From an uncultured Bacteroidales bacterium (GTDB taxonomy: Bacteria > Bacteroidota > Bacteroidia > Bacteroidales > Paludibacteraceae): a DNA stretch of 64,000 nucleotides. Under the pieces are notes generated by a model. The model made no database searches. It was given only the letters and a program-made list of their open reading frames with translations, and was not told the origin of the DNA. A program made the translations under genes and the position numbers. Below, piece after piece: positions 4,639 through 26,110 of this stretch. Where the stretch lies: assembly GCA_900317745.1 (NCBI GenBank), contig ONHW01000008.1, forward strand, positions 84,566-148,565, in the 5' to 3' direction. Every line of letters starts with the position of its first letter. The first letter of the stretch is position 1.

Positions 4639-4661
4639 GTTGAGCGTTGAGAGTTGAGAGT

Positions 4662-4707
4662 TTGAGAAGCCTACCCCCTGCCCCTCCCTGAAGGGAAGGG
4701 AGTGTTG
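4662..4707. repeat. 46-base palindromic repeat, copy A (5' end of recO frame)
   Basis: An exact 46-base match to 5670-5715, in the same orientation. Its core is a near-palindrome, CCCTTCCCT tc AGGGAGGGG on the minus strand. On the minus strand it reads through as QHSLPFREGQGVGFS in the recO frame. Confidence 0.9.
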
Positions 4708-4712
4708 AGGGT

Positions 4713-5180
4713 TTAACTATTTAACGTTTGTGTAACAAACTGCAGATCATCGTAGGTGTATCCACGCTGGAGCATGAAACGCAGTTGCTTCTGTCGGTCC
4801 TGTCCGCGCTTGGACAGGAGAAGCTTGCGTATATTGGCGTTGTAGGTATCGGTGTCGATATTACCGATAGCGTCGTTGATGAGTTCGTCGGGCAGGTGTT
4901 TGGCACGCAGACCCATGATAATCTTCATGCGTCCCCACGCCTGAAAAGCCACTTTATCGTGGACGAACGCCCGGCAGTAGCGTGCATCGTTGATATAGGA
5001 CTGCTGCTGCAGTTTGTCGATGATTGCGTCGGTTTGTTCGCAGGTAGCGCCTAAGCGGGAGAGCAGTTGTTGCACATCCGCTGTGCATCGTTCGGCGGTG
5101 GCACAGTAACGTTGTGCTCGCGAGAGGAGCGCATCGGTGTCAACGGGAAAATCGGGCATGAATGAATCGTTGTTTGCCAT
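4713..5180 (-). CDS. recX: Regulatory protein RecX
   Basis: RecX binds RecA filaments and inhibits RecA. The 155-residue protein is helical and shows the family blocks in order: RAQRYCATAERCTADVQQLL, then IIDKLQQQSYINDARYCRAFV, then WGRMKIIMGLRAK, and at the C-terminus LRFMLQRGYTYDDLQFV. The ATG at 5180 overlaps the 3' end of prmC by 41 bases; a second ATG at 5159 is also possible. The overlap suggests prmC-recX cotranscription, with recO immediately downstream, so the three form a minus-strand operon combining translation termination and recombination genes. Confidence 0.88.
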   Translation of the reverse strand: MANNDSFMPDFPVDTDALLSRAQRYCATAERCTADVQQLLSRLGATCEQTDAIIDKLQQQSYINDARYCRAFVHDKVAFQAWGRMKIIMGLRAKHLPDELINDAIGNIDTDTYNANIRKLLLSKRGQDRQKQLRFMLQRGYTYDDLQFVTQTLNS

Positions 5181-6018: not shown

Positions 6019-6022
6019 GCTG

Positions 6023-6054
6023 CAAAGATACAAAAAAAAGTTGAGATTTGCAAA
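6023..6054 (-). promoter_or_regulatory. Promoter for prmC, directly at the start codon
   Basis: TTTG (6054-6051), a 20-base spacer and TATCTTTG (6030-6023). The predicted transcription start is within a base or two of the GTG at 6018, so the prmC transcript should be leaderless or nearly so. Confidence 0.7.
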
Positions 6055-6077
6055 TATTTTTGAAAAAAGAAGATAGA

Positions 6078-6274
6078 CCGGCTGCGCCTGACAGAAGACA
6101 GACCGCTACGCTGACAGAAGACAGACTGCTACGCTGACAGAAGACAGACCGCTCGCGTAGCTCGCTGAGAGAATATAGACAGAATAAGTCTATCAGTGAA
6201 ACGGTCTGTCAGTGAAGCGGTCTGTCAGTGAAACGATCTGTCAGCGAAGCGGTCTATCAGTGAAACGGTCTAAC
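6078..6274. repeat. Repeat block with two head-to-head arrays (gacagaccgctacgctgacag-like)
   Basis: The left half holds three copies of a roughly 24-base unit, gacagaagacagaccgctacgct. The right half holds several copies of a roughly 17-base unit, tctgtcagtgaagcggtc, which is the left unit's core in reverse complement. The block fills the gap between the divergent prmC and ribD genes. Relatives occur in frame in the NfnAB-like gene at 24726-24806. Confidence 0.85.
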
Positions 6275-6280
6275 AAAAGT

Positions 6281-7312
6281 ATGACAGATTCTGATTATAT
6301 ATTACGTTGTCTGGAGTTGGCTGCCAACGGGGAGTATTACGTTGCGCCTAATCCTATGGTAGGTGCGTTGCTGGTTGATCCGGCAACCGACCGAGTTGTA
6401 GCCGAAGGCTGGCACCGGCAGTACGGCGGTCCGCATGCCGAGGTAGAGTGTTTTCGTGCGGCAGACGCGCGTATGGCAGGTCTGACCGAGGCAGAGAAAG
6501 CCGCCCGGTACAGCAGCCTGACATTGTATGTGTCGCTTGAGCCGTGTTCGCACTACGGCAAGACACCGCCTTGCGCCGACCTGATTGTGAAAAAAGGTGT
6601 GCGTCGTGTAGTGGTGGGCATATTGGATCCTAATCCGCAAGTGTCGGGCAAAGGTGTTCAGAAGTTACGCGACGCGGGCATAGAGGTGACGGTTGGTGTG
6701 GAGCAGGCGGCGTGCCGGAGGCTGAACAAGCGGTTCCTGTGTCTGCACGAGAAGCACCGCCCGTACGTGATACTGAAGTGGGCACAGACGGCAGACGGGT
6801 TTGTGGATAGCAGAGAGTCGAAAGCCGAAAGTCAGCCGCTGGTGATATCCACGCCGGTGACGAAACAGATCGTGCACCAGATGCGTGCCGAGAACATGGC
6901 TATCATGGTAGGAACGCGTACCGCACTGCTGGACAACCCGTCGCTGCTGACCACCCGTTGGCCCGGGCGCAACCCCGTGCGTGTGGTGTTGGACAGACAC
7001 CACCGCATACCAAAAGATGCCAAGATCTTCTCGGGCGATGCACCGACGATCGTCTATAGCGAGCGCACGGACTGGGAGTACGTACTCGGCGACCTGGCGC
7101 AGCGCGGCATACACTCGGTGCTGGTGGAGGGCGGACCGACACTGCTGCGGCATATACTGCAGACGGGTATATGGGACGAGATGCACGTTGAGGTAGGTGC
7201 TATGACGATCGGCAGCGGTGTGCTGGCACCCGAGGTTGAACTGCCGGATACGTACGAGCAGGTAGGGGAGGCTAAACTATACACGATTGACAATTTGCAC
7301 GAATACGAATAA
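6281..7312 (+). CDS. ribD: Bifunctional riboflavin biosynthesis protein RibD (deaminase/reductase)
   Basis: RibD carries out two steps of riboflavin synthesis: deamination of the pyrimidine and NADPH-dependent reduction of the ribosyl side chain. The N-terminal deaminase domain has the zinc site PHAEVECF (His52, Glu54) and EPCSHYGKTPPCAD (Cys89, Cys98). The C-terminal reductase domain has KWAQTADGFV, the MVGTRTALLDNP block and the SVLVEGGPTLL motif. The start MTDSDYILRC at 6281 is chosen because sequence upstream in the same frame is translated repeat. The length of 343 residues is normal for the family. The gene is divergent from prmC. Confidence 0.95.
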   Translation: MTDSDYILRCLELAANGEYYVAPNPMVGALLVDPATDRVVAEGWHRQYGGPHAEVECFRAADARMAGLTEAEKAARYSSLTLYVSLEPCSHYGKTPPCADLIVKKGVRRVVVGILDPNPQVSGKGVQKLRDAGIEVTVGVEQAACRRLNKRFLCLHEKHRPYVILKWAQTADGFVDSRESKAESQPLVISTPVTKQIVHQMRAENMAIMVGTRTALLDNPSLLTTRWPGRNPVRVVLDRHHRIPKDAKIFSGDAPTIVYSERTDWEYVLGDLAQRGIHSVLVEGGPTLLRHILQTGIWDEMHVEVGAMTIGSGVLAPEVELPDTYEQVGEAKLYTIDNLHEYE

Positions 7313-7377: not shown

Positions 7378-8232
7378 ATGAAACGAACACGAAGAGTATA
7401 TATCATTCTTGCCGGTTGTGCGCTGATAGGTTTGAGCGGTTGCAACCTGCTGCAGCGCGATGCGAAAGAGGGTGCTGTGGTGCAGGTGGGCAACAACTAC
7501 CTGTACGCGGAGGATCTGGCAGCCGTGACGCAGCGTGCTACCACGCCGGAGGACAGTGCGCGTTACGCGGAGGCGTTCATCCGCCGCTGGGCAACGGATA
7601 TATTGCAATACCAGGAGGGCAAGAGCCATAGCACGCCGGAGATAGAGGCGCTGGTGGAGGATTATCGCCGGAGTCTGTATGTGGCGGAGTATGAGCGTTA
7701 CGTGGTGGACAAACGTATGCCCAAGACGGTGAGCGATGCGGAGGCGGACACGTTCTATGTGCACAACACCGACCGGTTCATCCTGCAGGAGAACATCTTA
7801 CGCGGTGCGCTGCTGGTTATTCCCCGAGATGCGCCATTGCAGCCCGAACTGAAGAAAAGACTGACCGATCTGACAGACGAAGAGAACCTGGAGTATATAG
7901 AGAAGTATGCCTACCAGTATGCGTCGGGTTACGAGTTGTTCACTGAGCAGTGGCGCACGGGCAACCAGATACTGATTCGTATGCCAACGAACAACTGGCA
8001 GAAGACCTTGGCAGCGGGCAAGCAGTATGCGGAGCAGGACTCGACCTCGCTGTACCTGCTGCAGGTGACGGACTGCCGGTTGGCGGGTGAGCCTATGCCG
8101 GTGGATTATGCGCGCGAGGCGATAGACAAGATCATCCTGTCGCAGCGGCGGGTAGCGTTCTTGCAACAGCAGCGCAAGCAACTATACGATGAGGCAGTGA
8201 AATTCGGAAAAGTAAAATTTGATATTGAATGA
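7378..8232 (+). CDS. PPIC-related parvulin-like lipoprotein
   Basis: A lipoprotein signal (MKRTRRVYIILAGCALIGLSGC, lipobox LSGC) is followed by an N-terminal helical chaperone-like region (VVQVGNNYLYAEDLAAV, FIRRWATDILQYQEG) and a degenerate peptidyl-prolyl isomerase segment. This layout is typical of the first of two tandem PpiC/SurA homologues in Bacteroidetes, where the isomerase domain is often inactive. An ATG at 7372 is an alternative start. The stop overlaps the start of the next gene by four bases (ATGA), which implies translational coupling with the SurA-like protein. The inferred role is periplasmic escort of outer-membrane proteins. Confidence 0.78.
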   Translation: MKRTRRVYIILAGCALIGLSGCNLLQRDAKEGAVVQVGNNYLYAEDLAAVTQRATTPEDSARYAEAFIRRWATDILQYQEGKSHSTPEIEALVEDYRRSLYVAEYERYVVDKRMPKTVSDAEADTFYVHNTDRFILQENILRGALLVIPRDAPLQPELKKRLTDLTDEENLEYIEKYAYQYASGYELFTEQWRTGNQILIRMPTNNWQKTLAAGKQYAEQDSTSLYLLQVTDCRLAGEPMPVDYAREAIDKIILSQRRVAFLQQQRKQLYDEAVKFGKVKFDIE

Positions 8233-9572
8233 AGAAGATACTGTATATATGTATGCTGATGTTCGCCGTGTCGTGCATGGCTGACGAGAACATCATTGAC
8301 GAAGTGATCTGGATCGTAGGTGACGAAGCTATCCTGCGATCGGAGGTGGAGGAGGAACGGCTGCGTGCGCAGTACGAGGGTCAGGCTATCCCCGGTGACC
8401 CGTATTGCGTTATACCCGAGCAGTTGGCTGTGCAGAAGCTGTTTTTGCACCAGGCGGAGCTGGACTCGGTAGAGGTGTCGGAATCCACGGTGAGCCATCA
8501 GGTGGATATGCGTATGAACTATTACATCTCGCAGATCGGTTCGAAGGAGAAGATGGAGGAGTACTTCCGCAAGACGAGTTCGGAGATCCGTGAGGAAATG
8601 ATGAAGAACGTCCGTAACCAGATGGTTATCCAGCAGATGCAGCAGAAGCTGACGGCAAACATCAAACCTACGCCCGCCGAGATACGCCGTTATTACAACA
8701 GTCTGCCGATAGACTCTATCCCCATGATGCCAGCGGAGGTAGAGGTGCAGATACTGAGTTTCGTTCCACCCGTGCCGGTAGAAGAGACGGAGCGTATCAA
8801 GTCTCGTCTGCGCGAGTTCACGGAGCGTGTGATGAACGGTTCGGCAGACTTCTCGATGTTAGCGCGGTTCTACTCGGAGGACACCGAGAGCGCGAAGCAT
8901 GGCGGTGAGTTGGGGTTTGTAGGTCGCGGACAGTTGGTGCCGGAGTTTGCGGATGTGGCGTTCAGCCTGAACGACCCGAAGAAAGTGAGCCGCATTGTGG
9001 AGTCGGAGTACGGCTACCATATCATCCAGCTGATAGAGAAGCACGGCGAGCGAATCAACTGCCGGCATATACTGCTCAAGCCGCGCGTGTCGGCTACCGA
9101 CAAGATCAATGCTATCCATCGGCTGGACAGTATAGCCCAAGCCATACGTGCAGACAGTCTGACGTTTGAGCAGGCGATCATCCTATATTCGCAGGACAAG
9201 AACACCGCCATGAACGCGGGACTGATGACCAACCCGAACACCGGCGCATCGAAGTTCGAGTACCAGGATCTGCCAGCCGAGGTAGCCAAGCAGATCTACG
9301 GGATGAAGGAGGGAGACATATCCGAGCCGTTCGTAATGATGGATCCGACGAAGAACAAAGAGGTGTGCGCGATTGTCAAGCTCAAGCACAAGACGGATGT
9401 GCACCGCGCCAACCTGACGGACGATTTTCAGGCAGTCAAGTCGATGCTGATACAGAAGCAGTCGGCGGAGTTCATCCATAACTGGATCATCAAAAAGCAG
9501 AAAGAGACGTACATACAGATCGACCCTCGCTGGGCAGGGTGTGATTTTCAGTTTCCGAATTGGGTGCATTAA
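8229..9572 (+). CDS. SurA-like peptidyl-prolyl cis-trans isomerase
   Basis: SurA-type chaperones guide unfolded outer-membrane proteins through the periplasm. An N-terminal signal (MKKILYICMLMFAVSC) is followed by the SurA N-domain start (NIIDEVIWIVGDEAILRSEV) and a helical chaperone core. Two parvulin domains follow. The first has the FSMLARFYSEDTESAKHGGELGF and LVPEFADVAFSL blocks and SEYGYHIIQLIEKHG; the second starts at RHILLKPRV and carries ILYSQDKNTAMNAG. Cys16 could be a lipidation site, but the context (AVSCMA) is only a fair lipobox. The ATG overlaps the upstream lipoprotein gene. The length of 447 residues is normal for the Bacteroidetes family. Confidence 0.9.
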   Translation: MKKILYICMLMFAVSCMADENIIDEVIWIVGDEAILRSEVEEERLRAQYEGQAIPGDPYCVIPEQLAVQKLFLHQAELDSVEVSESTVSHQVDMRMNYYISQIGSKEKMEEYFRKTSSEIREEMMKNVRNQMVIQQMQQKLTANIKPTPAEIRRYYNSLPIDSIPMMPAEVEVQILSFVPPVPVEETERIKSRLREFTERVMNGSADFSMLARFYSEDTESAKHGGELGFVGRGQLVPEFADVAFSLNDPKKVSRIVESEYGYHIIQLIEKHGERINCRHILLKPRVSATDKINAIHRLDSIAQAIRADSLTFEQAIILYSQDKNTAMNAGLMTNPNTGASKFEYQDLPAEVAKQIYGMKEGDISEPFVMMDPTKNKEVCAIVKLKHKTDVHRANLTDDFQAVKSMLIQKQSAEFIHNWIIKKQKETYIQIDPRWAGCDFQFPNWVH

Positions 9573-9638
9573 GGTTGAGTGTTGAGTGTTGAGTGTTTAG
9601 TGTTGAGCGTTTAGAGTTGAGTGTTTAGAGTTGAAAAG
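9573..9638. repeat. gttgagtgt / gtttagagt tandem micro-repeat
   Basis: Near-tandem units of 7-9 bases fill the gap between the SurA-like and OstA-like genes and run into the first codons of the latter. Related sequence is seen at 4640-4660 and 40529-40576. Confidence 0.8.
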
Positions 9639-11303
9639 TTAATAGTGTTGCTGGTAGTCGGCTTGTTGTCAGTTGTCAATTGTCAATTGTCAATGAGTCA
9701 GACGTTGGTGTATCTGGAGCGGGCGGATAATCTGCTGTTTGATCAGGAGAAGCTGCCGGATGCACGGATCGTGGTGGGTAACGTGTTGTTTCGCCACGAT
9801 GAGGCGCTGATGTACTGCGATAGTGCGAACTTCTACGAAGGCAGCAACTCGCTGGAGGCTTTCGGGCACGTGAAGATGGTACAGGGTGATACGCTGACCG
9901 GTTATGGCGACAAACTGCTGTACAGCGGCAATACGAAGATAGCGCGGCTACGGCAGAACGTGCGGCTCATCCACCACGAGGCGGTGCTGACCACCGACAG
10001 TCTGAACTACGACAGGACGAACGATATAGCGTATTACTTCTCCGGCGGAAAGATCGTGGATGATCTGAACATCCTGACCTCTCGCTGGGGACAATACACG
10101 CCGTACAACAAACATGCAGCGTTCCGCGACAGCGTGCATCTGGTCAATCCGCGGTTCACGATGGATACCGATACGCTGCTGTACAACACCGAGACGCACG
10201 TGGCGCAGCTGGTGAGTCCGACCAAGGTGTTGTATGAGCAAGAGACAACGATCTACTCCTCCAACGGCCTGTACAACACCAAGACCGAGGAGTCGCAGTT
10301 GTTTGACCGCTCGCAGGTGATACATACCGACGGGATGTACCTGACGGGTGACACGATCTATTACGACAAGAAGTTGTCCTACGGCCGGCTGTACGGCAAT
10401 ATAGAGGTTGTTGACTCGGCGGAGCAGGTTACGCTGCGCGGCCATTACGGCGAGATGTACGAGAGCGGTTCTTCTGCCACGGCTCGTCCCGATTGGGGTT
10501 CGCACGGGTTTGCCACCAATGAGGCACTGCTGGAGCACTGGGGCGACAGTCTGCACACGTATATGCATGCGGACACGTTGTTTACGGAGGAAATAGCCTT
10601 GGCAGACACCTTGCCCGAGGACAGCACCTACCGCCGTGTGCGTGCGCATCATAACGTACGAATCTACCGCGAAGATATGCAGGGCGTGTGTGACTCGGCA
10701 GTGTATTTAGGCAACGATTCCATCGGCAAGATGTACGGTGCGCCCGTATGCTGGAACGAGAACAACCAGGTGTCGGCGGACAGCATATATGTATATTTCC
10801 GCAATGATGAGATCGATTATGCCCACGGGATGGGTTCGGCTATCTGCATCCAGCAGCACGACCTGCTGCACTACAACCAGATGAGCGGTAAGGAGATCAT
10901 TGCCCATGTGCGTGACGGTGACGTGTATCAGGTGGATGTGAACGGCAATGCGGAGACCGTGTTCTTCCCAGTGGATAAGGCGGACAACACCTTGAGCGGC
11001 TGTAACCGGACGCAAAGCAGTTTTGTGAAAGTGTTTATGGAGAACCGCGAGGTTCACCACGTGCTGTTCACGACCGCGACCACGGGTACGATGTATCCGA
11101 TGGATCAGGTGAGTGACGCAGTGATGCATCTGGGTGTGTTCTTCTGGGCGGAGGATGAGCGTCCGCGTGTGCCGGCAGATGTGCTGCTCAGTGTGCCGCG
11201 TACGCCCAGGGGCGAAAAGAAAGCTGTGAGTGCCGCCAGCGAAGAAGAGCCGGAGCAGAACAAACAGTCCTCACCGGCGAACGGCAGCCTGAAGGTCAAA
11301 TAG
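9621..11303 (+). CDS. OstA-like (LptA/LptD N-terminal-like) periplasmic protein
   Basis: This 560-residue protein is built of beta-jellyroll repeats such as NVLFRHDEALMYCDSANFYE, AFGHVKMVQGDTLTGYGDKL and GNIEVVDSAEQVTLRGHYGE, as in OstA/LptA-like lipopolysaccharide transport proteins. It lacks the large C-terminal barrel of LptD, so it is the OstA-like form common in Bacteroidetes. The start is a GTG at 9621 giving a hydrophobic LIVLLVVGLL signal core. The next residues (VVNCQLSMSQ) are encoded by a ttgtcaattgtcaattgtcaat repeat. The C-terminus is polar and low in complexity. Neighbouring SurA-like and barrel genes support a role in outer-membrane assembly; transport of lipopolysaccharide is inferred from the family. 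Confidence 0.82.
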   Translation: MFRVEKLIVLLVVGLLSVVNCQLSMSQTLVYLERADNLLFDQEKLPDARIVVGNVLFRHDEALMYCDSANFYEGSNSLEAFGHVKMVQGDTLTGYGDKLLYSGNTKIARLRQNVRLIHHEAVLTTDSLNYDRTNDIAYYFSGGKIVDDLNILTSRWGQYTPYNKHAAFRDSVHLVNPRFTMDTDTLLYNTETHVAQLVSPTKVLYEQETTIYSSNGLYNTKTEESQLFDRSQVIHTDGMYLTGDTIYYDKKLSYGRLYGNIEVVDSAEQVTLRGHYGEMYESGSSATARPDWGSHGFATNEALLEHWGDSLHTYMHADTLFTEEIALADTLPEDSTYRRVRAHHNVRIYREDMQGVCDSAVYLGNDSIGKMYGAPVCWNENNQVSADSIYVYFRNDEIDYAHGMGSAICIQQHDLLHYNQMSGKEIIAHVRDGDVYQVDVNGNAETVFFPVDKADNTLSGCNRTQSSFVKVFMENREVHHVLFTTATTGTMYPMDQVSDAVMHLGVFFWAEDERPRVPADVLLSVPRTPRGEKKAVSAASEEEPEQNKQSSPANGSLKVK

Positions 11304-12065: not shown

Positions 12066-12199
12066 GACCCACCCCCTGCCCCTCCCTCAAATTCACCCCA
12101 CTTCCGTTGGTCGCAGGGACCCCGATAGGGAGGGGAGTGAATAGCCATAGCAAGAACAAGGCAGACTATCGACTTTTGACTATCGACTATCGACTAAAA
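12066..12199. repeat. GC-rich palindromic repeat plus tatcgactt micro-repeats before dnaG
   Basis: The first part (12068-12142) shares the ccctgcccctccct core of the 46-base repeat and has an inverted partner (agggagggg) about 45 bases on. The second part (12166-12199) holds three copies of actatcgact. No gene is visible here. Confidence 0.75.
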
Positions 12200-14252: not shown

Positions 14253-14318
14253 AATTACGCTTTGTCGGTTGAAAATCGGTAAAATATGCCGTATTTTTTA
14301 CTTTTTTCAGTAAAATAC

Positions 14319-14349
14319 TTGCAAATTCGAAAAATTTTTAGTAACTTTG
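14319..14349 (+). promoter_or_regulatory. Promoter of the hypB-hypA cluster
   Basis: TTG (14319-14321), a 20-base spacer and TAACTTTG (14342-14349). The leader to the hypB start is about 60 bases. Confidence 0.72.
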
Positions 14350-14416
14350 TATCGCGTTCGTGCCATGCATGTGCATCAGCACTGCGTATAAATACCATAA
14401 AACACAAGTCATCATA

Positions 14417-15088
14417 ATGGATGAAGTAAGAATTATTGAGATTAAGAAGAGTGTCTTCGAAGATAATGACCGAGCCGCAGATGCGATGCGCGGCGAGTTG
14501 AAAAAGAAAGGTGTATTTCTGCTCAACCTTATGTCCTCTCCGGGCAGCGGTAAGACCACCACTCTCATTCAGACCATCAATCGTCTGAAACACAAAATCC
14601 GAATAGCCGTAATGGAGGCCGACATCGATAGCGATGTCGATGCCGTCAAGATCAAGGACGCCACGGGTGTGGAGTCCATTCAGTTGCATACGGGCGGTAT
14701 GTGCCACTTGGATGCAGAGATGACCGGGCAGGGGCTGGCAGCGATAGGCGACCAACCGGATCTGGTCATCTTGGAGAATGTCGGTAACTTGGTATGCCCG
14801 GCAGAGTTTGACACGGGCGCTGTAAAGAATGCAATGATTCTGTCCGTGCCTGAAGGCCACGACAAACCGCTGAAGTATCCGCTGATGTTCTCGATCTGCG
14901 ATGTGGTGGTAATCAATAAGATAGACGTTCTCCCGTACTTTGATTTCGATCTCGACAAGTGCCGGCAGTACATTCACATGCGCAATCCGAAAGCCACCAT
15001 CATCCCCATCTGTGCGAAGACGGGTGAGGGAGTGGACGCATTTGCCGATTGGCTGCTCAGCGAGGTTAATCAATGGAAAGAAGCATAA
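14417..15088 (+). CDS. hypB: Nickel-insertion GTPase HypB
   Basis: HypB is a GTPase that delivers nickel with HypA during [NiFe]-hydrogenase (and sometimes urease) maturation. The P-loop SSPGSGKTT (residues 40-48), the metal and nucleotide switch region HTGGMCHLDAEM (Cys96, His97), VILENVGNLVCPAEFD (Cys127) and the guanine-specificity motif NKID (167-170) are all present. The N-terminal nickel-storage His or CxxCGC tail seen in some HypB is absent. The start MDEVRIIEIK at 14417 is preferred over an upstream ATG in the leader. No hydrogenase gene lies nearby; its neighbour is a large iron-sulfur flavoprotein, so the nickel client is unknown. Confidence 0.94.
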   Translation: MDEVRIIEIKKSVFEDNDRAADAMRGELKKKGVFLLNLMSSPGSGKTTTLIQTINRLKHKIRIAVMEADIDSDVDAVKIKDATGVESIQLHTGGMCHLDAEMTGQGLAAIGDQPDLVILENVGNLVCPAEFDTGAVKNAMILSVPEGHDKPLKYPLMFSICDVVVINKIDVLPYFDFDLDKCRQYIHMRNPKATIIPICAKTGEGVDAFADWLLSEVNQWKEA

Positions 15089-15135
15089 TCGTCATTACGC
15101 CATCATCACGTCATGTCGTCATCACGAAATAATAA
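15085..15135. repeat. catcatcacg / gtcgtcat micro-repeat
   Basis: Imperfect repeats of cgtcattacgccatcatcacg type fill the short gap between hypB and the flavoprotein gene. Similar cgtgatt-type arrays occur at 18855-18885 and 27790-27866. Confidence 0.6.
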
Positions 15136-15160
15136 CAAACAATAATCTATAAATAGTCTT

Positions 15161-18016
15161 ATGCCGCAAATGTCAGATAAGTTTGTTCCCAAGCACAAGG
15201 GGGACAAAAATCCGAATCCGAAACTGCTGAAATTCGTTCGTCATGTCACGGATCGTATCCCCGGAAAGATCAAGATGACCACCGATGCCCCTGAGTATTG
15301 GGGCTTGGCATGCATCTTTGAGGACGAGATGGATGCCGTGACGCGTGAGGCATCGTTGGATCTGTTGCTGGATATGCTGCCCGGCAACTTCTTCAAGGTG
15401 CGCAAGCACCATACCTACGCGCAACTGCACGCCATGAACGCCAAGAAGCACTACACGCCCGACGACAAGTCGTTCGATGACCTGCTCGACAAACTCGCGT
15501 ACTTCGGCATGCTTGAATATGATTATGGTGACCATTATACCAATGGGCAGGGGCCGGATAAAGGTACAACGTTCAACCGCGAAGACCGTGTCTACTGGGT
15601 GCCGATGTTCGTGCCCGGTAGTGCAGAATATACGAACATGAACACCGACCTGATGGATCGTCATCCGGAATTGGCGATGTTCTTTGAGCGCATGACATTC
15701 TTGCCGTTGGAGAAGATAACCCCCATGGTGCCGATGGGCGGTAGCGGTATAGGTATGCACGTCATACCCGTCGAGAAAGCTATCTCCATGGAAAACCAAT
15801 CGGTCGATATTGAGCATATTAGTTACTGGCTCAAGAAATATGAAGGACACATAGGCGTGGGCATCTGCTCGTGCCGTTACGGACGTAAGAAACTCGACGA
15901 GGGCTGTGCCGACGACTACCGCGACTGGTGTATCGGTGTAGGCGATATGGCGGATTATCTGCGTGAGACGGGGCGTGGTCATGACATTACCTACGATGAG
16001 GCGATGGCTATCCTCAAGAAAGCCGAGGACCATGGCTTCGTTCATCAGGTAACGAACATCGACGGCGAGGGTAAGATATTCGCCATTTGCAACTGCAACG
16101 TTAAGATATGTAATGCCTTGCGTACCTCGCAACTGTTCAACACTCCGAACATGAGCCGTAGCGCATACGTGGCAAAGGTGGAGCCGAAGAACTGTGTGGC
16201 TTGCGGCCGATGCGTGGAGTATTGCCCTGCCGGTGCAGTTAAACTCGGGCAGAAACTCTGCACCAAGCATGGGCAGCAGACCTATCCGAAGCAAGAGCTG
16301 CCTGATGCAACGAAGTGGGGTGAAGGCAAGTGGACAGAAGATTACCGCGATAAGAACCGCATTAACTGCTATCCTACAGGTACTGCACCTTGTAAGACCG
16401 CCTGCCCGGCACATATAGCCGTGCAAGGCTACCTAAAGAAAGCCGCCGAAGGCAAATATACCGAGGCGCTGGAACTCATCAAGCGTGAGAACCCGCTACC
16501 TGCTGTGTGCGGGCGTATATGCAATCGCAGGTGCGAGGACGCGTGCACGCGCGGTACAATAGATAGAGCTATTGCCATTGATGCAGTCAAGAAGTTTATT
16601 GCCGAACAAGACTTGCATGCCGAGACGCGATTCGTGCCCGAAGTGAATATCTGCTCCAATGTGCAGGATCGCTGGGAGGAGAAGGTTGCCATCATCGGTG
16701 CCGGTCCGGCAGGATTAAGCTGTGCATATTACCTCGCCACGATGGGATACAAACCTACCGTGTTTGAGCGTAACGAAGAGCCAGGAGGAATGTTGCGCTA
16801 TGGTATTCCGTCCTACAAGTTGGATAAGGATGTCATCAAAGCCGAGATAGATATCATGCGCGAGATAGGCGTGGATATCAAGTGCGGTGTTGAGGTCGGC
16901 AAAGATGTGACGATTGCGCAACTGCGCGAGCAGGGGTACAAGGGCTTCTATGTAGCCATCGGTTGCCAAGGTGGTCGCTTGCCGGGTATCCCGGGTGACA
17001 CGTTGGAGGGTACAACCACGGCGATTGACTTCCTGCACAACGCCAATTGCGGTCAATTAGTCGAAACTCAAAAGGCTGCTTTGCTCAAAGATAAAAGAGT
17101 AGTAGTCGTAGGCGGTGGCAACGTGGCTATCGATGCAGCACGCGTAGCCAAACGAAGCGGGGCAGCCGGGGTGACAATGCTCTCGCTGGAAACGGAAGAT
17201 ATAATGCCCGCATCGCTTGAGGAGCGCATTGAGGCGCGCGAAGACGGCGTGGTTATCAACCCCGGGTGGGGACCAATGGAAGTGAATGGTGAAGGTGGAA
17301 AGGTGAAAGGAATCACTTTCAAGAAGTGCCTGTCGGTGTTCGACAAGGATCATAAGTTCACGCCTACGTTCGATGAGAACGAGACAATCACGCTCGATGC
17401 CGATTTGGTGATCTTTGCCATTGGGCAAACCGTTGTACTGAAGGATCTGCTCAAGGATACAAAGGTAGAGTTCTTCCGCGGCGTATATCCTGTAGCCGAC
17501 AAACTGACCTATCAGACTGCCGAGCCGGATATCTTTGTGGGCGGTGATGTGTTTACCGGTCCTAAGTTTGCCATCGATGCCATCGCTGCGGGTAAGGAGG
17601 CGGCTGAGAGTCTGCATCGCTACGTGCAGCACGGCCATATGACGATCGGTCGTAACCGCCGAGACTTTATCGAACTCAACAAACAGGATATTTTGGTTGA
17701 GCAGTACGACAACGGCAGTCGTCAAGAGCCGGGTGTCGTTCCGACAAAGACGAAGTTTGAGGAGTACCACGGTACGCTCACCGAGGAGCAGGTTAAGAAG
17801 GAAACAGCCCGTTGCCTCAGTTGCGGCGCATCGGTAGTGGATGAGAATAGGTGTATCGGCTGCGGTATATGTACCACCAAATGCGCTTTCGATGCTATCC
17901 ATCTGCATCGTGAACACCCCGAAGCCAGTGTGATGCGCACATCGGAGAATAAGTTCGACGGCATCCTGCCATACATGATCAAACGTGCCGGAAAGATTAT
18001 GTTTAAGAAAGGTTAA
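15161..18016 (+). CDS. Multi-cluster [4Fe-4S] FAD/NAD(P) oxidoreductase, GltD-like core with an unusual N-terminal domain
   Basis: Three parts are visible. Residues 1-360 hold a winged-helix-like start and a cysteine-rich region (ICSCRY Cys236/238, Cys249, Cys257, ICNCNVKIC Cys310/312/317), then a ferredoxin motif CVACGRCVEYCP (Cys345-355). Residues about 400-880 are a glutamate-synthase beta-like module with its own cysteines (411, 415, 450, 454, 458, 462), the FAD site AIIGAGPAGLSCAYY (about 511) and the NAD(P) site VVVVGGGNVAIDAARV. The C-terminus has a second cysteine set (885-908, CIGCGICTTKC). Such modules move electrons between NAD(P)H, flavin and ferredoxin. Lying between hypB and hypA, it may be the redox partner of a nickel enzyme or itself a client; this is inference. 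Confidence 0.85.
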   Translation: MPQMSDKFVPKHKGDKNPNPKLLKFVRHVTDRIPGKIKMTTDAPEYWGLACIFEDEMDAVTREASLDLLLDMLPGNFFKVRKHHTYAQLHAMNAKKHYTPDDKSFDDLLDKLAYFGMLEYDYGDHYTNGQGPDKGTTFNREDRVYWVPMFVPGSAEYTNMNTDLMDRHPELAMFFERMTFLPLEKITPMVPMGGSGIGMHVIPVEKAISMENQSVDIEHISYWLKKYEGHIGVGICSCRYGRKKLDEGCADDYRDWCIGVGDMADYLRETGRGHDITYDEAMAILKKAEDHGFVHQVTNIDGEGKIFAICNCNVKICNALRTSQLFNTPNMSRSAYVAKVEPKNCVACGRCVEYCPAGAVKLGQKLCTKHGQQTYPKQELPDATKWGEGKWTEDYRDKNRINCYPTGTAPCKTACPAHIAVQGYLKKAAEGKYTEALELIKRENPLPAVCGRICNRRCEDACTRGTIDRAIAIDAVKKFIAEQDLHAETRFVPEVNICSNVQDRWEEKVAIIGAGPAGLSCAYYLATMGYKPTVFERNEEPGGMLRYGIPSYKLDKDVIKAEIDIMREIGVDIKCGVEVGKDVTIAQLREQGYKGFYVAIGCQGGRLPGIPGDTLEGTTTAIDFLHNANCGQLVETQKAALLKDKRVVVVGGGNVAIDAARVAKRSGAAGVTMLSLETEDIMPASLEERIEAREDGVVINPGWGPMEVNGEGGKVKGITFKKCLSVFDKDHKFTPTFDENETITLDADLVIFAIGQTVVLKDLLKDTKVEFFRGVYPVADKLTYQTAEPDIFVGGDVFTGPKFAIDAIAAGKEAAESLHRYVQHGHMTIGRNRRDFIELNKQDILVEQYDNGSRQEPGVVPTKTKFEEYHGTLTEEQVKKETARCLSCGASVVDENRCIGCGICTTKCAFDAIHLHREHPEASVMRTSENKFDGILPYMIKRAGKIMFKKG

Positions 18017-18050
18017 TTTTTTAATTCATAATTTTTAATTTTTAATTTCT
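18014..18050. repeat. AT-rich tttttaatt micro-repeat
   Basis: Near-tandem attcataattttt / tttttaatt units fill the gap between the flavoprotein and hypA. Confidence 0.75.
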
Positions 18051-18053
18051 CTC

Positions 18054-18410
18054 GTGCACGAACTGGGAATAGTTTTCTATATCATCCGTGATGTCAAGGC
18101 GGCAGCGGAGCAGAACAGCGTCAAGAAGGTGGCTCAGGTGGTGATGAACATCGGCGAGGTGAGCACCATCATCCCCGACTACCTGACGGACTGCTGGCGA
18201 TGGGCTGCTGACAAGGAGGATATCCTACGCGGCTGCGAACTGAAGATTGAACCCATCCCGGCCATTACGCATTGCGATGGCTGCGGCAAGGACTATCCTA
18301 CCGTGGCGCATGGCAAGATATGCCCGCATTGCGGCAGCCCGAACACGTGGCTCAAGCAGGGCAACGAGGTGGAGATAAAAGAGATCGTTGTGCCACAAGA
18401 GAACCCGTAA
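18054..18410 (+). CDS. hypA: Nickel metallochaperone HypA
   Basis: HypA binds nickel through its N-terminal MHE and zinc through two CxxC motifs, and hands nickel to client enzymes together with HypB. The gene starts with GTG, giving MHELGIVFYI with the nickel ligand His2 and Glu3 in place. The zinc site is CDGC (Cys74, Cys77) and CPHC (Cys90, Cys93). The 118-residue length is normal. It is separated from hypB only by the flavoprotein gene, with AT-rich repeats on both sides. The conserved ligands argue that nickel handling is real, even though no known nickel enzyme is in the window. Confidence 0.93.
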   Translation: MHELGIVFYIIRDVKAAAEQNSVKKVAQVVMNIGEVSTIIPDYLTDCWRWAADKEDILRGCELKIEPIPAITHCDGCGKDYPTVAHGKICPHCGSPNTWLKQGNEVEIKEIVVPQENP

Positions 18411-18491
18411 TTATTAATTTTGAATTCATAATTTTGAATTCTTAATTTTGAATTGTAATTTTTAATTTATAATTTTTAATTTTTAATTCAC
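18411..18491. repeat. AT-rich ttttgaattc / tttttaatt micro-repeat
   Basis: Six or more imperfect units of about 12 bases (ataattttgaattc type) lie between hypA and the next gene, and are similar to 18014-18050. Confidence 0.8.
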
Positions 18492-18493
18492 TA

Positions 18494-18847
18494 ATGGCTT
18501 GTTTTATTGTACCATTGACTCAAGCGATAGCCACAACGGCATATCGCAAATCGGTAGAGAAAAAGCAATCGTTGACTAACAGCGATAGCTGCCTTTCACC
18601 TTTCACCTCTCATCTCTCATCGTTGGAGAAGATGCTGTGGGGCGGATCGCTGATGCTGGTTGTGGACCATATCATCAACGGAGAAGTGACATGGATGTAC
18701 CCGTTCTTCACGGCGTTGGAGACGGAGGGTGGCTGGCAAACGATGCTCAGCGAAATGTTGACCGTAGGCGTGCCGATGAGTGTGATTGTGACTGCAGTAT
18801 GGGCGGTATATTGCTATGCAGTGGAAAAAAAAGCCGTCAAGGCATAA
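18494..18847 (+). CDS. Small membrane protein of the hypBA cluster
   Basis: A 117-residue protein with an N-terminal hydrophobic segment (MACFIVPLTQAIATTAY) and two later helices (MLWGGSLMLVVDHII, and GVPMSVIVTAVWAVYCYAV). From memory, similar small proteins accompany HypA and DUF5692-type genes in other anaerobes, but this is not verified. Between residues 25 and 43, the stretch QSLTNSDSCLSPFTSHLSS looks unlike the rest. It is encoded by a ctttcacctttcacctctcatct micro-repeat, suggesting an in-frame insertion in a loop. A membrane anchor or transport subunit is a reasonable guess; the function is unknown. Confidence 0.7.
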   Translation: MACFIVPLTQAIATTAYRKSVEKKQSLTNSDSCLSPFTSHLSSLEKMLWGGSLMLVVDHIINGEVTWMYPFFTALETEGGWQTMLSEMLTVGVPMSVIVTAVWAVYCYAVEKKAVKA

Positions 18848-18922
18848 ACAAAAATCGTGATCCCGTGATCTCATGATCTCGTGACTCCGATCCATAAAAA
18901 TCAATATTTAAAATCACAAATT

Positions 18923-20026
18923 ATGTTTTTTCAAGTTTATGGGCCTGAGGCCCTTGCTCAATGGGGAATGCTGTTGGTAGTCCTCGTTGGCTTAATCTTG
19001 TTCAATGAGTTTGCCCGTCGTACGAAGTTGGGCGGTGCAATCACATTCTTTGCTATACCGTTGGCTCTGACGGTATACTTCGTAGCCATTGCCATTGGAG
19101 CCCGTATGGGTGCAGAATGGGCGGTTAACAACCAAACGCACGTGTATATGAACGGCTGGTTCCATTACGCCAAACTCTATGCTGCGCTCACCGGCTGTAT
19201 CGGCTTTATGATGATCAAGTACGAGTGGGGTATAGGTGCCAAGCATTGGTTCAAACCTTTCCCGTTCATCATTGTGGCTATCAATATTCTGATTGCCGTT
19301 GCTTCTGACTTTGAGTCAGCCATCATGGGTTGGAACAAGTGGTGGCTGTCAAGTGAAGGTGTGTGGTTGTATGGCGGCTGGCACAACGTGTTCAACGGTG
19401 TAGCCGGTTTGTTCAACATCTTCTGTATGACTGCTTGGTGGAACGTGTTCCCGTCGAAGGACCGCAAGGATATGATCTGGGCGGATATGACCTGGGTGTA
19501 TATCCTCGTATATGACATCTGGAACTTTGCATACACCTACAACTGTCTGCCTACACACAGCTGGTACTGCGGTATCGCTCTGCTGTTGGCTCCGACCGTA
19601 GCAGCCTTGTTGTGGAACCGTGGTGGCTGGATTCAGAACCGCGCCAATACTTTGGCAATCTGGTGTATGTTCGCGCAGGTGTTCCCGTTGTTCCAAGAGA
19701 CGTTCTTCAACGGTAAGCAGTTCTACTCATGGGCTGTGTTGCCTACGCAGTACGTTAATGGTATCGAAACGATCAACGCTATCTACGCTGCATCAGGTCT
19801 GGGTGACGAGGTTGTTGCTCACACCACAGTCGTTGCCGAGGGTGCTACTGCTGCCAACCCGACAGCTATGTTGGTAATCAGTGCTCTGGCTCTGGTTACG
19901 AACATCGTAGCCTTCACCTATATCATGGTTCAAGCCAAGAAACGCAGTATCAACCCGTACAAGGAAGACGTATTCGTCGACCAGAAGTACTACAAGGATG
20001 CTATCGCACGCGCTGAGATCAACTAA
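18923..20026 (+). CDS. DUF5692-family multi-spanning membrane protein
   Basis: This 367-residue protein has about nine or ten hydrophobic helices, including WGMLLVVLVGLILFNEF, ITFFAIPLALTVYFVAI, PFIIVAINILIAVASDF, YCGIALLLAPTVAALLW and a last TAMLVISALALVTNIVAFTYIM. Tryptophans are abundant and several aromatic and His/Asp residues lie near membrane borders (GGWHNVFNGVAGLFNIF, WADMTWVYILVYDIWNF). I associate it with the DUF5692 family from memory. The start MFFQVYGPEA at 18923 is preferred to an upstream ATG in repeat sequence. It ends the hypB-flavoprotein-hypA-small membrane protein cluster and is followed by a strong terminator, so it is probably a cluster member. Confidence 0.75.
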   Translation: MFFQVYGPEALAQWGMLLVVLVGLILFNEFARRTKLGGAITFFAIPLALTVYFVAIAIGARMGAEWAVNNQTHVYMNGWFHYAKLYAALTGCIGFMMIKYEWGIGAKHWFKPFPFIIVAINILIAVASDFESAIMGWNKWWLSSEGVWLYGGWHNVFNGVAGLFNIFCMTAWWNVFPSKDRKDMIWADMTWVYILVYDIWNFAYTYNCLPTHSWYCGIALLLAPTVAALLWNRGGWIQNRANTLAIWCMFAQVFPLFQETFFNGKQFYSWAVLPTQYVNGIETINAIYAASGLGDEVVAHTTVVAEGATAANPTAMLVISALALVTNIVAFTYIMVQAKKRSINPYKEDVFVDQKYYKDAIARAEIN

Positions 20027-20050
20027 TCAGCTCATACCCTCCTATCACAG

Positions 20051-20081
20051 AAAAGCGTCCCGAGCGGGACGCTTTTCTTAT
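20051..20081 (+). terminator. Intrinsic terminator after the hypBA cluster
   Basis: A perfect inverted repeat (AAAAGCGTCCCG ag CGGGACGCTTTT) with a T-rich tail, 24 bases after the DUF5692-like stop codon. Confidence 0.9.
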
Positions 20082-20130: not shown

Positions 20131-20682
20131 CTATTTCTTAAAGTAACGGTTGTACAGGCCTTGGAAGCCGGCTCCGTGGCGTGCTTCATCGCGAGCCATC
20201 TCGTGAACGGTGTCGTGGATGGGATCGAGGTTCAGTTCCTTGGCACGTTTGGCGATAGCGAGTTTGTCTTCGCAAGCGCCAGCCTCGGCGAGCATACGTT
20301 TCTCGAGGTTGGTCTTGGTGTCCCAAACAACCTCACCGAGCAGTTCGGCGAACTTCGAAGCGTGCTCAGCCTCCTCGTAAGCATACTGGCGGAACGCAGC
20401 AGCGATCTCGGGATAGCCCTCGCGGTCAGCCTGACGCGCCATTGCCAGATACTGTCCCACCTCGGTGCACTCGCCCATGAAGTGCGCGCGCAGACCGTCG
20501 CGGATGATAGGATCCTGCTCGTTCTTGGCAACGCCCAGCACGTGCTCGCATGCCCAGGTCAGGGCCTTGCTCTCGTCGGCAACTTTCCACTCAACGATTT
20601 GTTTACACTGCGGGCAACGCTCGGGTGCCTCGGTGCCCTCGTGAACATATCCACAGATAGGGCAGATAAATTTCTTGTTCAT
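20131..20682 (-). CDS. Reverse rubrerythrin (NADH peroxidase type)
   Basis: The rubredoxin domain comes first (FICPICGY and RCPQCK; Cys7, Cys10, Cys23, Cys26), followed by a four-helix di-iron domain. This is the reverse order to classical rubrerythrin. Iron ligands are visible in [35 protein letters not shown] and [12 protein letters not shown]. Such proteins reduce hydrogen peroxide with electrons from NAD(P)H and protect anaerobes from oxygen. The 183-residue length is typical. It is a single gene converging with the DUF5692-like gene; no close promoter match was found. Confidence 0.9.
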
Positions 20683-23758: not shown

Positions 23759-26110
23759 TTACTTGTCAGCGCTGAGTGCGGCGTGCATGGCTGCTGCGGC
23801 TTTACGTCCGTCGGACATAGCGAGGATCACCGTAGCGCCACCGCGGACTATATCGCCGCCGGCATAGAGGACAGGCAGCGAGGAGCGCATGTTGTCGTCC
23901 ACGACGATCGTGCCTTTGCGTGACACTTCGAGTCCGGCTACGGACTTCGGTATGATCGGATTGGGCGACACGCCTACTGCTACCACTACCATGTCGGCGG
24001 GCATAGTGATCGTCTTGCCTTCAACAGGCACAGGCGAGCGGCGACCGGATTCATCGGGTTCACCCAAAGTCATGACTTGCAGCACCGCCTCCTTGACACG
24101 GCCGCTTTCGTCGGCGTGGTACTCGATAGGGTTATGCAAGGTCATGAACTCTATACCTTCGGCTTTGGCGTGCTCCACCTCCTCATGACGTGCAGGCATT
24201 TCGTCCTCGCTACGGCGATACACGATGATCGCGTGTTCTGCGCCCAGACGTTTGGCTGTACGCACCGCATCCATGGCGGTGTTGCCACCGCCTATGACGA
24301 GCACGTTCTTGCCATAGAGCACCGGTGTATCGGTGGCGGCGTTGGTGGCGTCCATAAGGTTCACGCGCGTGAGGTACTCGTTGGAGGACATAACACCGTT
24401 GAGGTTCTCACCCGGGATACCCATGAATCGCGGCAGACCTGCGCCCGAGGCGACAAACACAGCCTTGTAGCCGTCAGCCTGCAGATCATCGACAGTGATC
24501 GTCTTGCCAACAATTGTATCGGTGACAAACTCCACGCCCAAGGCGCGCAGACCGTCGATCTCCTTATCCACAATCGCGTTAGGCAGACGGTACTCGGGTA
24601 TACCGTACTTGAGCACACCGCCAATGGCGTGCAGCGCCTCGAACACTGTGACCCGATAGCCGTATTTAGCCATGTCGCCGGCAAAGGTCAGGCCGGCAGG
24701 ACCAGATCCGACTACAGCAACCTTTAGACCGCTTTCGCTGACAGACCGTTCGCTTTGCTCACTGATAGAGTACAGACCGCTCGTTTCACTCGCTGAAAGA
24801 TTGTCAGCATGGTCGGCAACGAAGCGCTCGAGGTAACCGATGGCAACGGGTTTGTGCCCCATTTTCAGATGGATACATTGTGCTTCGCACTGCTTCTCCT
24901 GCGGGCATACGCGGCCGCAGACGGCAGGCAGCGAACTGGACTCGTGGATGATAGCCGAAGCCTTCTGTATATCGCCGAGTTCGATCTGCTTGATGAACGC
25001 CGGTATATCGATGTTCACGGGGCAGCCTTTGACGCAGCCCGGGTTCTTGCAACTCAGGCAGCGGTGGCTCTCGGTGAGAGCCTGTTCGGGTGTCAGGCCG
25101 AGGTTGACCTCTTTGTGGAGCGACTTAATACGCTCCTCGGGTGCCAGTTCGGGCATAACTACGCGAGGAATGGCGGCGCGCTCTTTCGGAGAAAGACCAA
25201 GACCCTTCTCCGGCTCTCCCCTCATAGGGGAGAGAGTAGTATGACTCGAATCTGAGGGTTGGGGAGTGACGGAGTTGGTTTCTGCGTGTTGACCATTGAG
25301 GTAGGCTTCGTAGGCAGCGGCTTCCTCAGGCTTGTAGGAGCGCAGGCGGGAAAGCATTTCATCGAAATCCACCTGATGCGCATCGAACTCGGGTCCATCG
25401 ACACAGACGAACTTCGTTTGTCCGCCAACGGTGACACGGCATGCGCCGCACATACCTGTGCCGTCCACCATGATTGTGTTCAGCGAAGCTTCGGTAGGGA
25501 TATTGTACTTCTTGGTGGTGAGTGCGACGAACTTCATCATGATAGCGGGACCGATCGTGATACACTTGTCCACGTGCTCGCGTGCTGCAACCGTCTCTAT
25601 ACCTTGTGTGACCAATCCCTGCGTTCCCATCGAACCATCATCTGTCATGACGATCACTTCGTCGGAGGTGGCAGACAGTTCGTCGTGGAGGATGATCAGG
25701 TCTTTGTTACGCGCAGCGAGTATAGTGATCACGCGGTTGCCGGCGCGCTTGAGCGCCTGTGCGATAGGCAACATAGGCGCAGCACCCACGCCACCGCAGG
25801 CACAAACGACCGTTCCGTAGTTCTCGATACGCGTAGCCTGCCCGAGCGGGCCAACAATGTCCGCAAGGCAGTCGCCCGGGTTCAGGGCGCAGAGTTTGGC
25901 ACTGCTGACACCAATACGCTGTACGACCAGAGTGATCGTGCCGGCAGAGGTGTCGGCGTTGGAAATGGTGAGCGGCATACGCTCGGAGTTGTTGTCCACG
26001 CGCACTATGACAAAGTGTCCTGCGCGACGACTCTTGGCAATGAGCGGAGCTTCCACAACGAGCTCCGCTACATTGTCAGAGAAGAAACGCTTAGAAATGA
26101 TCCGATTCAT
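23759..26110 (-). CDS. Fused NfnA-NfnB-like NAD(P)H/ferredoxin flavoprotein with two in-frame repeat insertions
   Basis: The 783-residue protein joins two subunits that are separate in many anaerobes. Residues 1-270 are a ferredoxin-NADP reductase/DHODB-like domain with FAD and NAD sites (VVCACGGVGAAPML) and a [2Fe-2S] site MCGACRVTV (Cys221, Cys224, Cys236). Residues 310-783 are a GltD-like domain with CLSCKNPGCVKGCP, CGRVCPQEKQCEAQC, AVVGSGPAGLTFAGD and VLVIGGGNTAMDAVR. NfnAB bifurcates electrons between NADH, ferredoxin and NADPH; assigning that reaction here is inference, and a sulfide dehydrogenase/glutamate synthase-like role is the alternative. Residues about 272-306 and 434-461 are repeat-encoded inserts. 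Confidence 0.85.
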   Translation of the reverse strand: MNRIISKRFFSDNVAELVVEAPLIAKSRRAGHFVIVRVDNNSERMPLTISNADTSAGTITLVVQRIGVSSAKLCALNPGDCLADIVGPLGQATRIENYGTVVCACGGVGAAPMLPIAQALKRAGNRVITILAARNKDLIILHDELSATSDEVIVMTDDGSMGTQGLVTQGIETVAAREHVDKCITIGPAIMMKFVALTTKKYNIPTEASLNTIMVDGTGMCGACRVTVGGQTKFVCVDGPEFDAHQVDFDEMLSRLRSYKPEEAAAYEAYLNGQHAETNSVTPQPSDSSHTTLSPMRGEPEKGLGLSPKERAAIPRVVMPELAPEERIKSLHKEVNLGLTPEQALTESHRCLSCKNPGCVKGCPVNIDIPAFIKQIELGDIQKASAIIHESSSLPAVCGRVCPQEKQCEAQCIHLKMGHKPVAIGYLERFVADHADNLSASETSGLYSISEQSERSVSESGLKVAVVGSGPAGLTFAGDMAKYGYRVTVFEALHAIGGVLKYGIPEYRLPNAIVDKEIDGLRALGVEFVTDTIVGKTITVDDLQADGYKAVFVASGAGLPRFMGIPGENLNGVMSSNEYLTRVNLMDATNAATDTPVLYGKNVLVIGGGNTAMDAVRTAKRLGAEHAIIVYRRSEDEMPARHEEVEHAKAEGIEFMTLHNPIEYHADESGRVKEAVLQVMTLGEPDESGRRSPVPVEGKTITMPADMVVVAVGVSPNPIIPKSVAGLEVSRKGTIVVDDNMRSSLPVLYAGGDIVRGGATVILAMSDGRKAAAAMHAALSADK
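24726..24806. repeat. Repeat of the gacagaccgct family inside the NfnAB-like gene
   Basis: Several copies of cagaccgctttcgctga-type units, like 6078-6274, translated on the minus strand as residues about 434-461 (SASETSGLYSISEQSERS region). Confidence 0.8.
25203..25265. repeat. Palindromic GC-rich repeat inside the NfnAB-like gene
   Basis: Contains the palindrome CTCTCCCCT cat AGGGGAGAG (25214-25234) and a gagggttggggag tail, the same class as the repeats in prmC and at 31597. It is translated in frame in the inter-domain linker. Confidence 0.8.

Follow-up and report, generated by a model that had tools for sequence, protein, structure and literature searches.

The window analysed here, a 64,000-nucleotide stretch of DNA from an uncultured Bacteroidales bacterium (contig ONHW01000008.1), carries at positions 14255-20081 of its + strand a set of five genes, namely hypB, a flavoprotein gene, hypA, a small membrane protein gene and a DUF5692 gene, separated by spacers of 37-83 nt. 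On balance, this operon probably encodes a reductase of the IsrA clade-9 kind, with its own metal-loading pair and a six-cysteine site that would hold nickel and hydrogenate carbon-carbon double bonds (C=C). Taken separately, nickel in the flavoprotein site is likely, while the reduction of a C=C bond by the flavoprotein is an evenly balanced proposition. IsrA is a 901-residue oxidoreductase induced by isoprene, and a putative isoprene reductase, of Acetobacterium wieringae ISORED-2 (Kronen et al. 2023, PMC10134865). The original prediction, made from the window sequence, had placed five co-oriented genes here, and all five are indeed found on the + strand at 14417-20026. It had also called them an undescribed system, a description that has to be abandoned because the core of the cluster, i.e. 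the association of flavoprotein, HypA, HypB and DUF5692, the lack of a [NiFe]-hydrogenase and the site with six cysteines, was published in 2023 (PMC10134865).

The flavoprotein and its HypAB pair

The flavoprotein gene (15161-18016, + strand) was assigned from domain profiles and from alignments A1 and A3 as an isrA-like FAD/NAD(P)H iron-sulfur oxidoreductase of 951 residues, the length originally predicted. Its profile matches comprise Fer4 (339-360), Fer4_20 (403-486), Pyr_redox_2 (508-811) and Fer4_6 (892-913). For residues 346-890, the best solved match is 9bov (E 1.4e-87), with Nfn subunits among the next, so that the C-terminal two thirds of the protein can be assigned by similarity to the Nfn/GltD/dihydropyrimidine dehydrogenase type of FAD-[4Fe-4S] unit. 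The route from NAD(P)H to FAD and on to the clusters, which is established for these families, would therefore be the safest step of any mechanism.

Eight cysteines (51, 236, 238, 249, 257, 310, 312 and 317) precede the first ferredoxin motif, rather than the seven of the original prediction. Six of them (C236, C238, C257, C310, C312 and C317) are invariant in all 42 rows of alignment A3, the window included, as is H295. Together they form a candidate metal or active site (15866-16111, + strand), which corresponds to the six-cysteine 'cluster V' of IsrA, proposed as a possible nickel site in a model that also holds four canonical [4Fe-4S] clusters (PMC10134865). Indeed, the CxC pairs 180/182 and 254/256 and the ferredoxin motif 289-300 of IsrA correspond to 236/238, 310/312 and 345-356 of the window protein, with a constant offset of 56. 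The window protein thus has a six-cysteine site with two CxC pairs, for which the published numbers cover four of the six cysteines; the likeness to IsrA rests on these published positions and on the domain description. As for the N-terminal 340 residues, a profile search against solved structures matched the ferredoxin stretch alone, among the 60 matches listed out of 61. Two or three of the 42 N-terminal rows match HVO_A0114 or DUF7342, which we take to be winged-helix types.

HypB (14417-15088, + strand), a predicted nickel-insertion GTPase, scores 233.5 bits against TIGR00073 (cut-off 121.2), and its closest solved structure is the HypB 4lps (E 8.3e-41). HypA (18054-18410, + strand, GTG start), a predicted nickel metallochaperone, scores 101.4 bits against PF01155 of Pfam (cut-off 28.9) and lies below the NCBIfam TIGR00100 cut-off (73.5 vs 88.1). 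The nickel and GTP residues named in the original prediction are all present: HypB has C96, H97, C127, GSGKT and NKID at 167, and HypA has H2, E3 and two CxxC motifs. Among the relatives, the Cys-His pair and the second cysteine are kept in 70 of the 70 HypB open reading frames (ORFs), GSGKT in 65 and NKxD in 68, and MHE and two CxxC motifs in 79 of the 79 HypA ORFs.

Possible clients of the pair were searched in 52 genomes (30 Bacteroidales and 22 others), i.e. the window's own genome (G000), G348 and 50 of the 80 best flavoprotein loci described below. In the own genome, which is 95.6% complete, no profile match was found to [NiFe]-hydrogenase (PF00374), urease (PF00449), NiFe-S carbon monoxide dehydrogenase (CODH) or LarA; service of a hydrogenase or a urease by this HypAB pair was therefore rejected, in agreement with the original prediction that neither enzyme is present for it. 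The [NiFe] large-subunit profile matched four of the 52 genomes, none of them Bacteroidales. Urease alpha (PF00449) matched two, both Bacteroidales (G459 and G465), whose short partial hits score 23.4 and 29.6 bits (cut-off 23), cover 41 and 46 of the 121 positions, respectively, and are unlikely to represent true ureases. Concerning NiFe-S CODH, five genomes were matched, with one match, outside the Bacteroidales, over the cut-off; the hits in the Bacteroidales G348 and G469 (45.3 and 38 bits vs a cut-off of 478) are presumably hybrid-cluster proteins. LarA_N matched 15 genomes, 13 of them over the cut-off, including partial and weak matches in six of the 30 Bacteroidales, four of them over the cut-off.

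HypA was matched in all 52 genomes; every one of the 30 Bacteroidales genomes, that of the window included, has a single match. Each of the four [NiFe]-positive genomes carries two or more HypA matches above the cut-off, and in G489 and G490 one of these is within about 5 kb of the [NiFe] match. Among the clients tested, the flavoprotein is thus, on profile evidence, the one candidate nickel client found in the window genome. A different view, that HypAB serve another nickel enzyme of the genome and that the flavoprotein is a mere neighbour, could draw on the completeness of 95.6% and on the Ni-glyoxalase, Ni-superoxide dismutase and other nickel proteins that were not searched, but HypA accompanies the flavoprotein in 56 of the 57 loci with full flanks, across three phyla, and we hold this view to be very unlikely. 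The original prediction had offered either the extra cysteine region of the flavoprotein or a membrane protein as the place where HypAB load their metal; the cysteine region is the most likely.

Conservation of the gene set and its variants

A genome scan with the N-terminal alignment yielded at least 451 relatives among at least 592 pattern matches, of which the best 80 were kept; with L023 and L034-L039, they make up 87 loci (51 Bacteroidales and 36 others). Neighbourhood counts use the 57 loci with full flanks (31 Bacteroidales and 26 others), the 30 loci with short flanks being dropped, and a gene was scored as present at a tblastn E <= 1e-4 over at least 60 residues, broken copies included (e.g. 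the DUF5692 gene of L047, in three pieces). The first distant homologues had come from gut contigs and a plasmid in phage and plasmid collections, with 47-69% identity over the full alignment.

Among the 31 Bacteroidales loci, HypB and HypA are each found in 31, and the small membrane protein and DUF5692 in 28 each. All five genes occur together in 26 of them, 24 having the order and strand of the window and two (L081 and L082) being rearranged. The conservation of the five-gene set is far beyond chance, and the conserved neighbourhood implied by the original prediction is borne out. For the 26 other loci, the corresponding numbers are 25 for HypA, 18 for HypB, 3 for DUF5692 and none for the small membrane protein. 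Over both groups, HypB is found in 49 of the 57 loci.

A tree built by a quick method from 79 long proteins, IsrA not among them, and rooted at the midpoint places the Bacteroidota, the window included, in one clade of 46 rows with an SH-aLRT support of 100, the other rows belonging to Bacillota, Spirochaetota and one Actinomycetota. This single clade amid other phyla suggests one transfer of the flavoprotein into the Bacteroidales. The cluster is patchy at close range: a genome of the same genus (G392) and two of the same family have no flavoprotein match, and in a random sample of the phylum the N-terminal domain was found in two of the 148 genomes (the own genome and one partial match of 30%). 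A scan of a viral contig collection gave no match.

Some of these loci deserve a separate description. L034 (OY725877.1, 187101-202228) carries hypB-isrA-hypA-DUF5692 on a Subdoligranulum record of 267 kb that is deposited as a plasmid and typed as mobilizable (MOBV); such an element could spread the cluster horizontally. L035-L039 (MT835522, MT835711, MT836859, MT835472 and MT835493) are human-faecal contigs labelled 'Bacteriophage sp.' with isrA clusters; by eye, they resemble pieces of bacterial chromosomes. L084 (2069-3166), from a 'Clostridia' metagenome-assembled genome (MAG), has an isrA match (78%) that ends at residue 367, with no hypA in the stretch, and may be a broken copy, a chimeric contig or a contamination.

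The DUF5692 protein (18923-20026, + strand, counted from the first ATG) scores 428.5 bits against PF18948 (cut-off 27), and its model shows nine helices of at least 15 residues (predicted local distance difference test, pLDDT, 79.7; predicted template modelling score, pTM, 0.79) with no match at E <= 0.001 in a fold search against the PDB. The small membrane protein (18494-18847, + strand, 117 residues) has no Pfam family, nor was any family found for it in the profile searches. The two genes complete the set as originally predicted. The DUF5692 residues that are invariant in the 21-27 aligned rows include E29, R32, K84, D129, D183, R240 and several aromatics, with no invariant histidine or cysteine (H212 is nearly invariant), which argues against a haem electron carrier; the small protein has one invariant histidine and one invariant cysteine.

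DUF5692 was found in 16 of the 295 genomes of the order, and the flavoprotein was absent from 9 of the 11 tested, the five genomes whose DUF5692 matches are weak, partial or fragmentary being left out; two of the nine have an 80% identical DUF5692. DUF5692 was consequently rejected as a dedicated partner. In contrast, the small membrane protein, present in two of the 295 genomes, looks like a dedicated partner within the order, since both carry the flavoprotein, for which a minority of the other 293 were screened. That the small protein was seen only in IsrA loci of the Bacteroidales clade, and that DUF5692 also occurs without IsrA, are new here.

These data bear on the electron-transfer complex of the original prediction, in which the two membrane proteins would link NAD(P)H, ferredoxin and the membrane. 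The Nfn/GltD-like nature of the C-terminal two thirds agrees with it, but the invariant residues of the two membrane proteins offer no obvious haem pair or cluster, and DUF5692 stands in nine genomes without the flavoprotein and is missing from 23 of the 26 non-Bacteroidales loci, all 26 of which lack the small protein. We consider this complex highly improbable.

HypB is absent nearby in eight of the 57 loci, five of which hold a CooC-type ATPase: L101 (2592-11267), L103 (2492-11454), L108 (2488-11423), L113 (2479-11258) and L111 (7962-16131), the coordinates being those of isrA with the CooC-type gene group. In the sequence retrieved for the three others (L035, L107 and L114), both HypB and CooC are lacking, and no CooC-type ATPase was found in the stretches retrieved for the 82 other loci. 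For the CooC-type copy of L101, the best solved match is CooC1 (3kje, E 1.4e-18). The five loci, of Lachnospiraceae type and new here, also carry a BcrAD/BadFG ATPase, a pair of PF06050 proteins, a family of the 2-hydroxyacyl-CoA dehydratase or double-cubane type, and a roughly 240-residue protein resembling the CdhC domain of acetyl-CoA synthase. For each gene, a single copy was compared with the profiles (the L103 copies for PF06050); the CdhC-like copy of L101 is borderline against PF03598 (24.9 bits, cut-off 24), and a PDB search with all five copies returned 13 matches at E <= 1, all of them acetyl-CoA synthases (best E 0.017).

The five loci are related and do not represent five independent events. 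In L111, the CooC gene group is on the strand opposite to isrA, and the association therefore survives rearrangement. This locus, from a Clostridia MAG, also has two divergent isrA homologues, at 4277-7024 (-) and 7962-10853 (+), 50% and 63% identical to that of the window (tblastn), with a TetR-like ORF, named by eye, between them.

A CooC-type ATPase in place of HypB is read as further support for a nickel centre, and the CooC/PF06050/BcrAD group may constitute an ATP-driven, low-potential variant of the system. The same loci also provide an argument for another explanation, according to which HypA and HypB supply a different metal or help to build iron-sulfur clusters, the six-cysteine site being an all-iron cluster: PF06050 is of the double-cubane type, and cluster V has been likened both to the nickel-containing A cluster of acetyl-CoA synthase and to the all-iron P and double-cubane clusters (PMC10134865). 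The strict conservation of the metal residues of HypB and HypA and the nickel-type CooC ATPase as the alternative neighbour speak against it, and we judge an all-iron site to be rather unlikely.

Substrate contexts and proposed reaction

According to the preferred reading, HypB, as the GTPase, would hand Ni2+ to HypA for insertion into the six-cysteine site in the N-terminal part of the flavoprotein. The FAD of the Nfn/GltD-like domain would take up electrons from NAD(P)H, and these would pass along the [4Fe-4S] clusters to the metal site. There, a hydrophobic substrate would be hydrogenated at a C=C bond that is unactivated and probably conjugated, serving reductant disposal. The two membrane proteins would probably assist indirectly, by docking the enzyme at the membrane or by supplying a lipophilic substrate; a role of DUF5692 and the small protein in docking or in lipid-substrate handling is a guess. 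The alkene substrate is proposed by analogy with the IsrA of Acetobacterium, the putative isoprene reductase.

Several observations weigh against this reading. The isoprene role of IsrA was based on proteomics and comparative genomics, with no purified enzyme (PMC10134865), and no nickel measurement on any member of the family was found in the literature, most subscription papers being outside the search. The model of the N-terminal domain has a pLDDT of 67.9, is weak at residues 181-216 and 323-400, and gave no Foldseek match against the PDB at E <= 0.001. The C-terminal ferredoxin motif departs from the offset of 56 (IsrA 848-877, window cysteines 885-908); IsrA has a 26-residue insertion at 756-782 (PMC10134865). 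Three genomes (G480, G483 and G487) have two HypA without a [NiFe] match, so an extra HypA is not solely the mark of a hydrogenase. Lastly, the window operon holds no substrate gene, and neither a homologue of the linoleate isomerase discussed below nor an oleate hydratase was found in the 30 Bacteroidales genomes, that of the window included.

Concerning the substrate, three loci have a fatty-acid context, which is new here. In the human-faecal contig L037 (1972-6574), the isrA homologue is preceded on the same strand, at a distance of 13 nt, by an ORF that matches 2b9w (384 bits, E 8.8e-114); 2b9w, listed as a putative aminooxidase, is presumably the linoleate isomerase PAI of P. acnes. L128 (2242-10137, from the Spirochaetia genome of L112) has, on one strand, TetR, an oleate hydratase (PF06100, 697 bits), the isrA homologue and an AMP-binding ligase. 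In L129 (1870-18742, from the genome of L096), isrA and a PAI-like gene are 9.5 kb apart, separated by ORFs on the opposite strand, and the PAI-like gene adjoins genes for a ligase and an acyl-ACP thioesterase. These linkages suggest that part of the IsrA family handles unsaturated fatty acids. An oleate hydratase is also reported near the A. woodii and A. fimetarium homologues, in a paper whose text does not contain 'linole' (PMC10134865); apart from this remark, no literature linking the family to fatty acids was found in a search that left out most subscription papers.

The window protein might be a biohydrogenase of the rumen and gut, specifically reducing conjugated polyunsaturated fatty acids (e.g. 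conjugated linoleate) for detoxification and as an electron sink. In keeping with this, the record titles of many of the best 80 loci name MAGs from the rumen or the gut of herbivores, and three of the loci belong to Pseudobutyrivibrio. Against it, among the 87 loci a PAI-like gene occurs in one and an oleate hydratase in none, and among the 52 genomes a near-full-length PAI homologue is present in one (the other matches being short dinucleotide-fold stretches) and an oleate hydratase (MCRA) exceeds the cut-off in three, one of them fragmentary. Moreover, the sequence of the conjugated linoleic acid reductase of Butyrivibrio was reported by Fukuda 2007, as cited in PMC4478896. According to that paper, of 2015, the absence of the rumen butyrivibrio fatty-acid oxidoreductase from KEGG, COG and Pfam prevented a search for it, even though a sequence had been reported (PMC4478896). 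We regard the biohydrogenase explanation as doubtful, and a fatty-acid substrate for the window cluster as equally so.

In its broadest form, the preferred reading of a nickel-dependent C=C reductase would make the IsrA family a new class of nickel enzymes, biohydrogenases with a Ni-Fe-S site fitted by HypA together with HypB or a CooC-type ATPase, which would include the missing polyunsaturated fatty-acid reductases of gut and rumen, the membrane proteins presenting the lipid; this extension is improbable. To our knowledge, few classes of nickel enzymes exist, and none hydrogenates plain C=C bonds. In rumen and gut, the biohydrogenation of unsaturated fats influences the fat of milk and meat, and methane formation is affected by alternative electron sinks. 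IsrA relatives are common in the rumen and gut anaerobes where both processes matter, and the gene contexts offer a concrete and cheap test of substrate and metal.

Locus layout and likeness to known systems

The five-gene set is bordered by a dnaG-like and a rubrerythrin-like ORF, both named by eye. A promoter-like site, TTG-N20-TAACTTTG, is found at 14319-14349 (+ strand), of what we take to be the Bacteroidota -33/-7 type; in the window, the + strand has the pattern 11 times, vs 1.6 times in mononucleotide shuffles. The original prediction had seen one good promoter here. The site itself stands, but the pattern occurs within 300 nt upstream of hypB in 11 of the 45 relatives only, and a single promoter ahead of hypB is therefore no more than plausible. 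The strong terminator predicted behind the set was recovered as an intrinsic hairpin with a 13-pair stem (20049-20078, + strand; -22.3 kcal/mol, z -7.3). Short degenerate tandem repeats with units of 7-8 nt occupy the spacers 18013-18048, 18408-18488 and 18855-18884, and are also seen at 9574-9694 and 12164-12196. A CTCATC-rich stretch in the small membrane protein gene (about 18590-18621, by eye) is where the relatives differ or have gaps. Downstream lie, by eye, the rubrerythrin-like gene (20131-20682, - strand) and a gene for a 783-aa NfnAB/GltA-like flavoprotein (23759-26110, - strand), a possible context of electron supply and oxygen defence.

As regards known systems, the window protein has the published architecture of IsrA clade 9, i.e. 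an unassigned N-terminal domain, Fer4, Fer4_20, an FAD/NAD(P) domain and a C-terminal Fer4 in about 900 residues, with 951 residues vs 901 for IsrA. It also has hypA and hypB as neighbours, like the clade-9 homologues, and DUF5692 as well; for 988 IsrA homologues, the neighbour frequencies are 0.73 for HypA, 0.56 for HypB, 0.40 for DUF5692 and 0.21 for TetR (PMC10134865). The isr operon groups isrA with two hypA, hypB and a ferredoxin gene, in a genome that, like that of the window, lacks a [NiFe]-hydrogenase (PMC10134865). The second hypA and the ferredoxin are missing from the window set (one hypA genome-wide, no ferredoxin gene within 14255-20081), a further point against the reading proposed above, whereas the small membrane protein is added. 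By three features, the architecture, the six-cysteine site and the hypA and hypB neighbours, the window cluster is, as far as its sequence indicates, a Bacteroidales member of the IsrA clade-9 kind and not an isr operon proper.

Residues 391-823, approximately, align with solved members of NfnB, GltD and dihydropyrimidine dehydrogenase, to which the window protein adds the N-terminal six-cysteine domain of about 340 residues, the C-terminal ferredoxin domain and the HypAB partners. Compared with the HypA and HypB of [NiFe]-hydrogenase and urease maturation, the families and metal residues are alike, but no such enzyme is matched in the genome and HypA lies below the TIGR00100 cut-off. Finally, the likeness to acetyl-CoA synthase and CooC nickel insertion lies in genes resembling CooC and a synthase domain, which adjoin isrA not in the window but in the five Lachnospiraceae-type loci, where the synthase-like protein is short and stands beside IsrA rather than being part of it.

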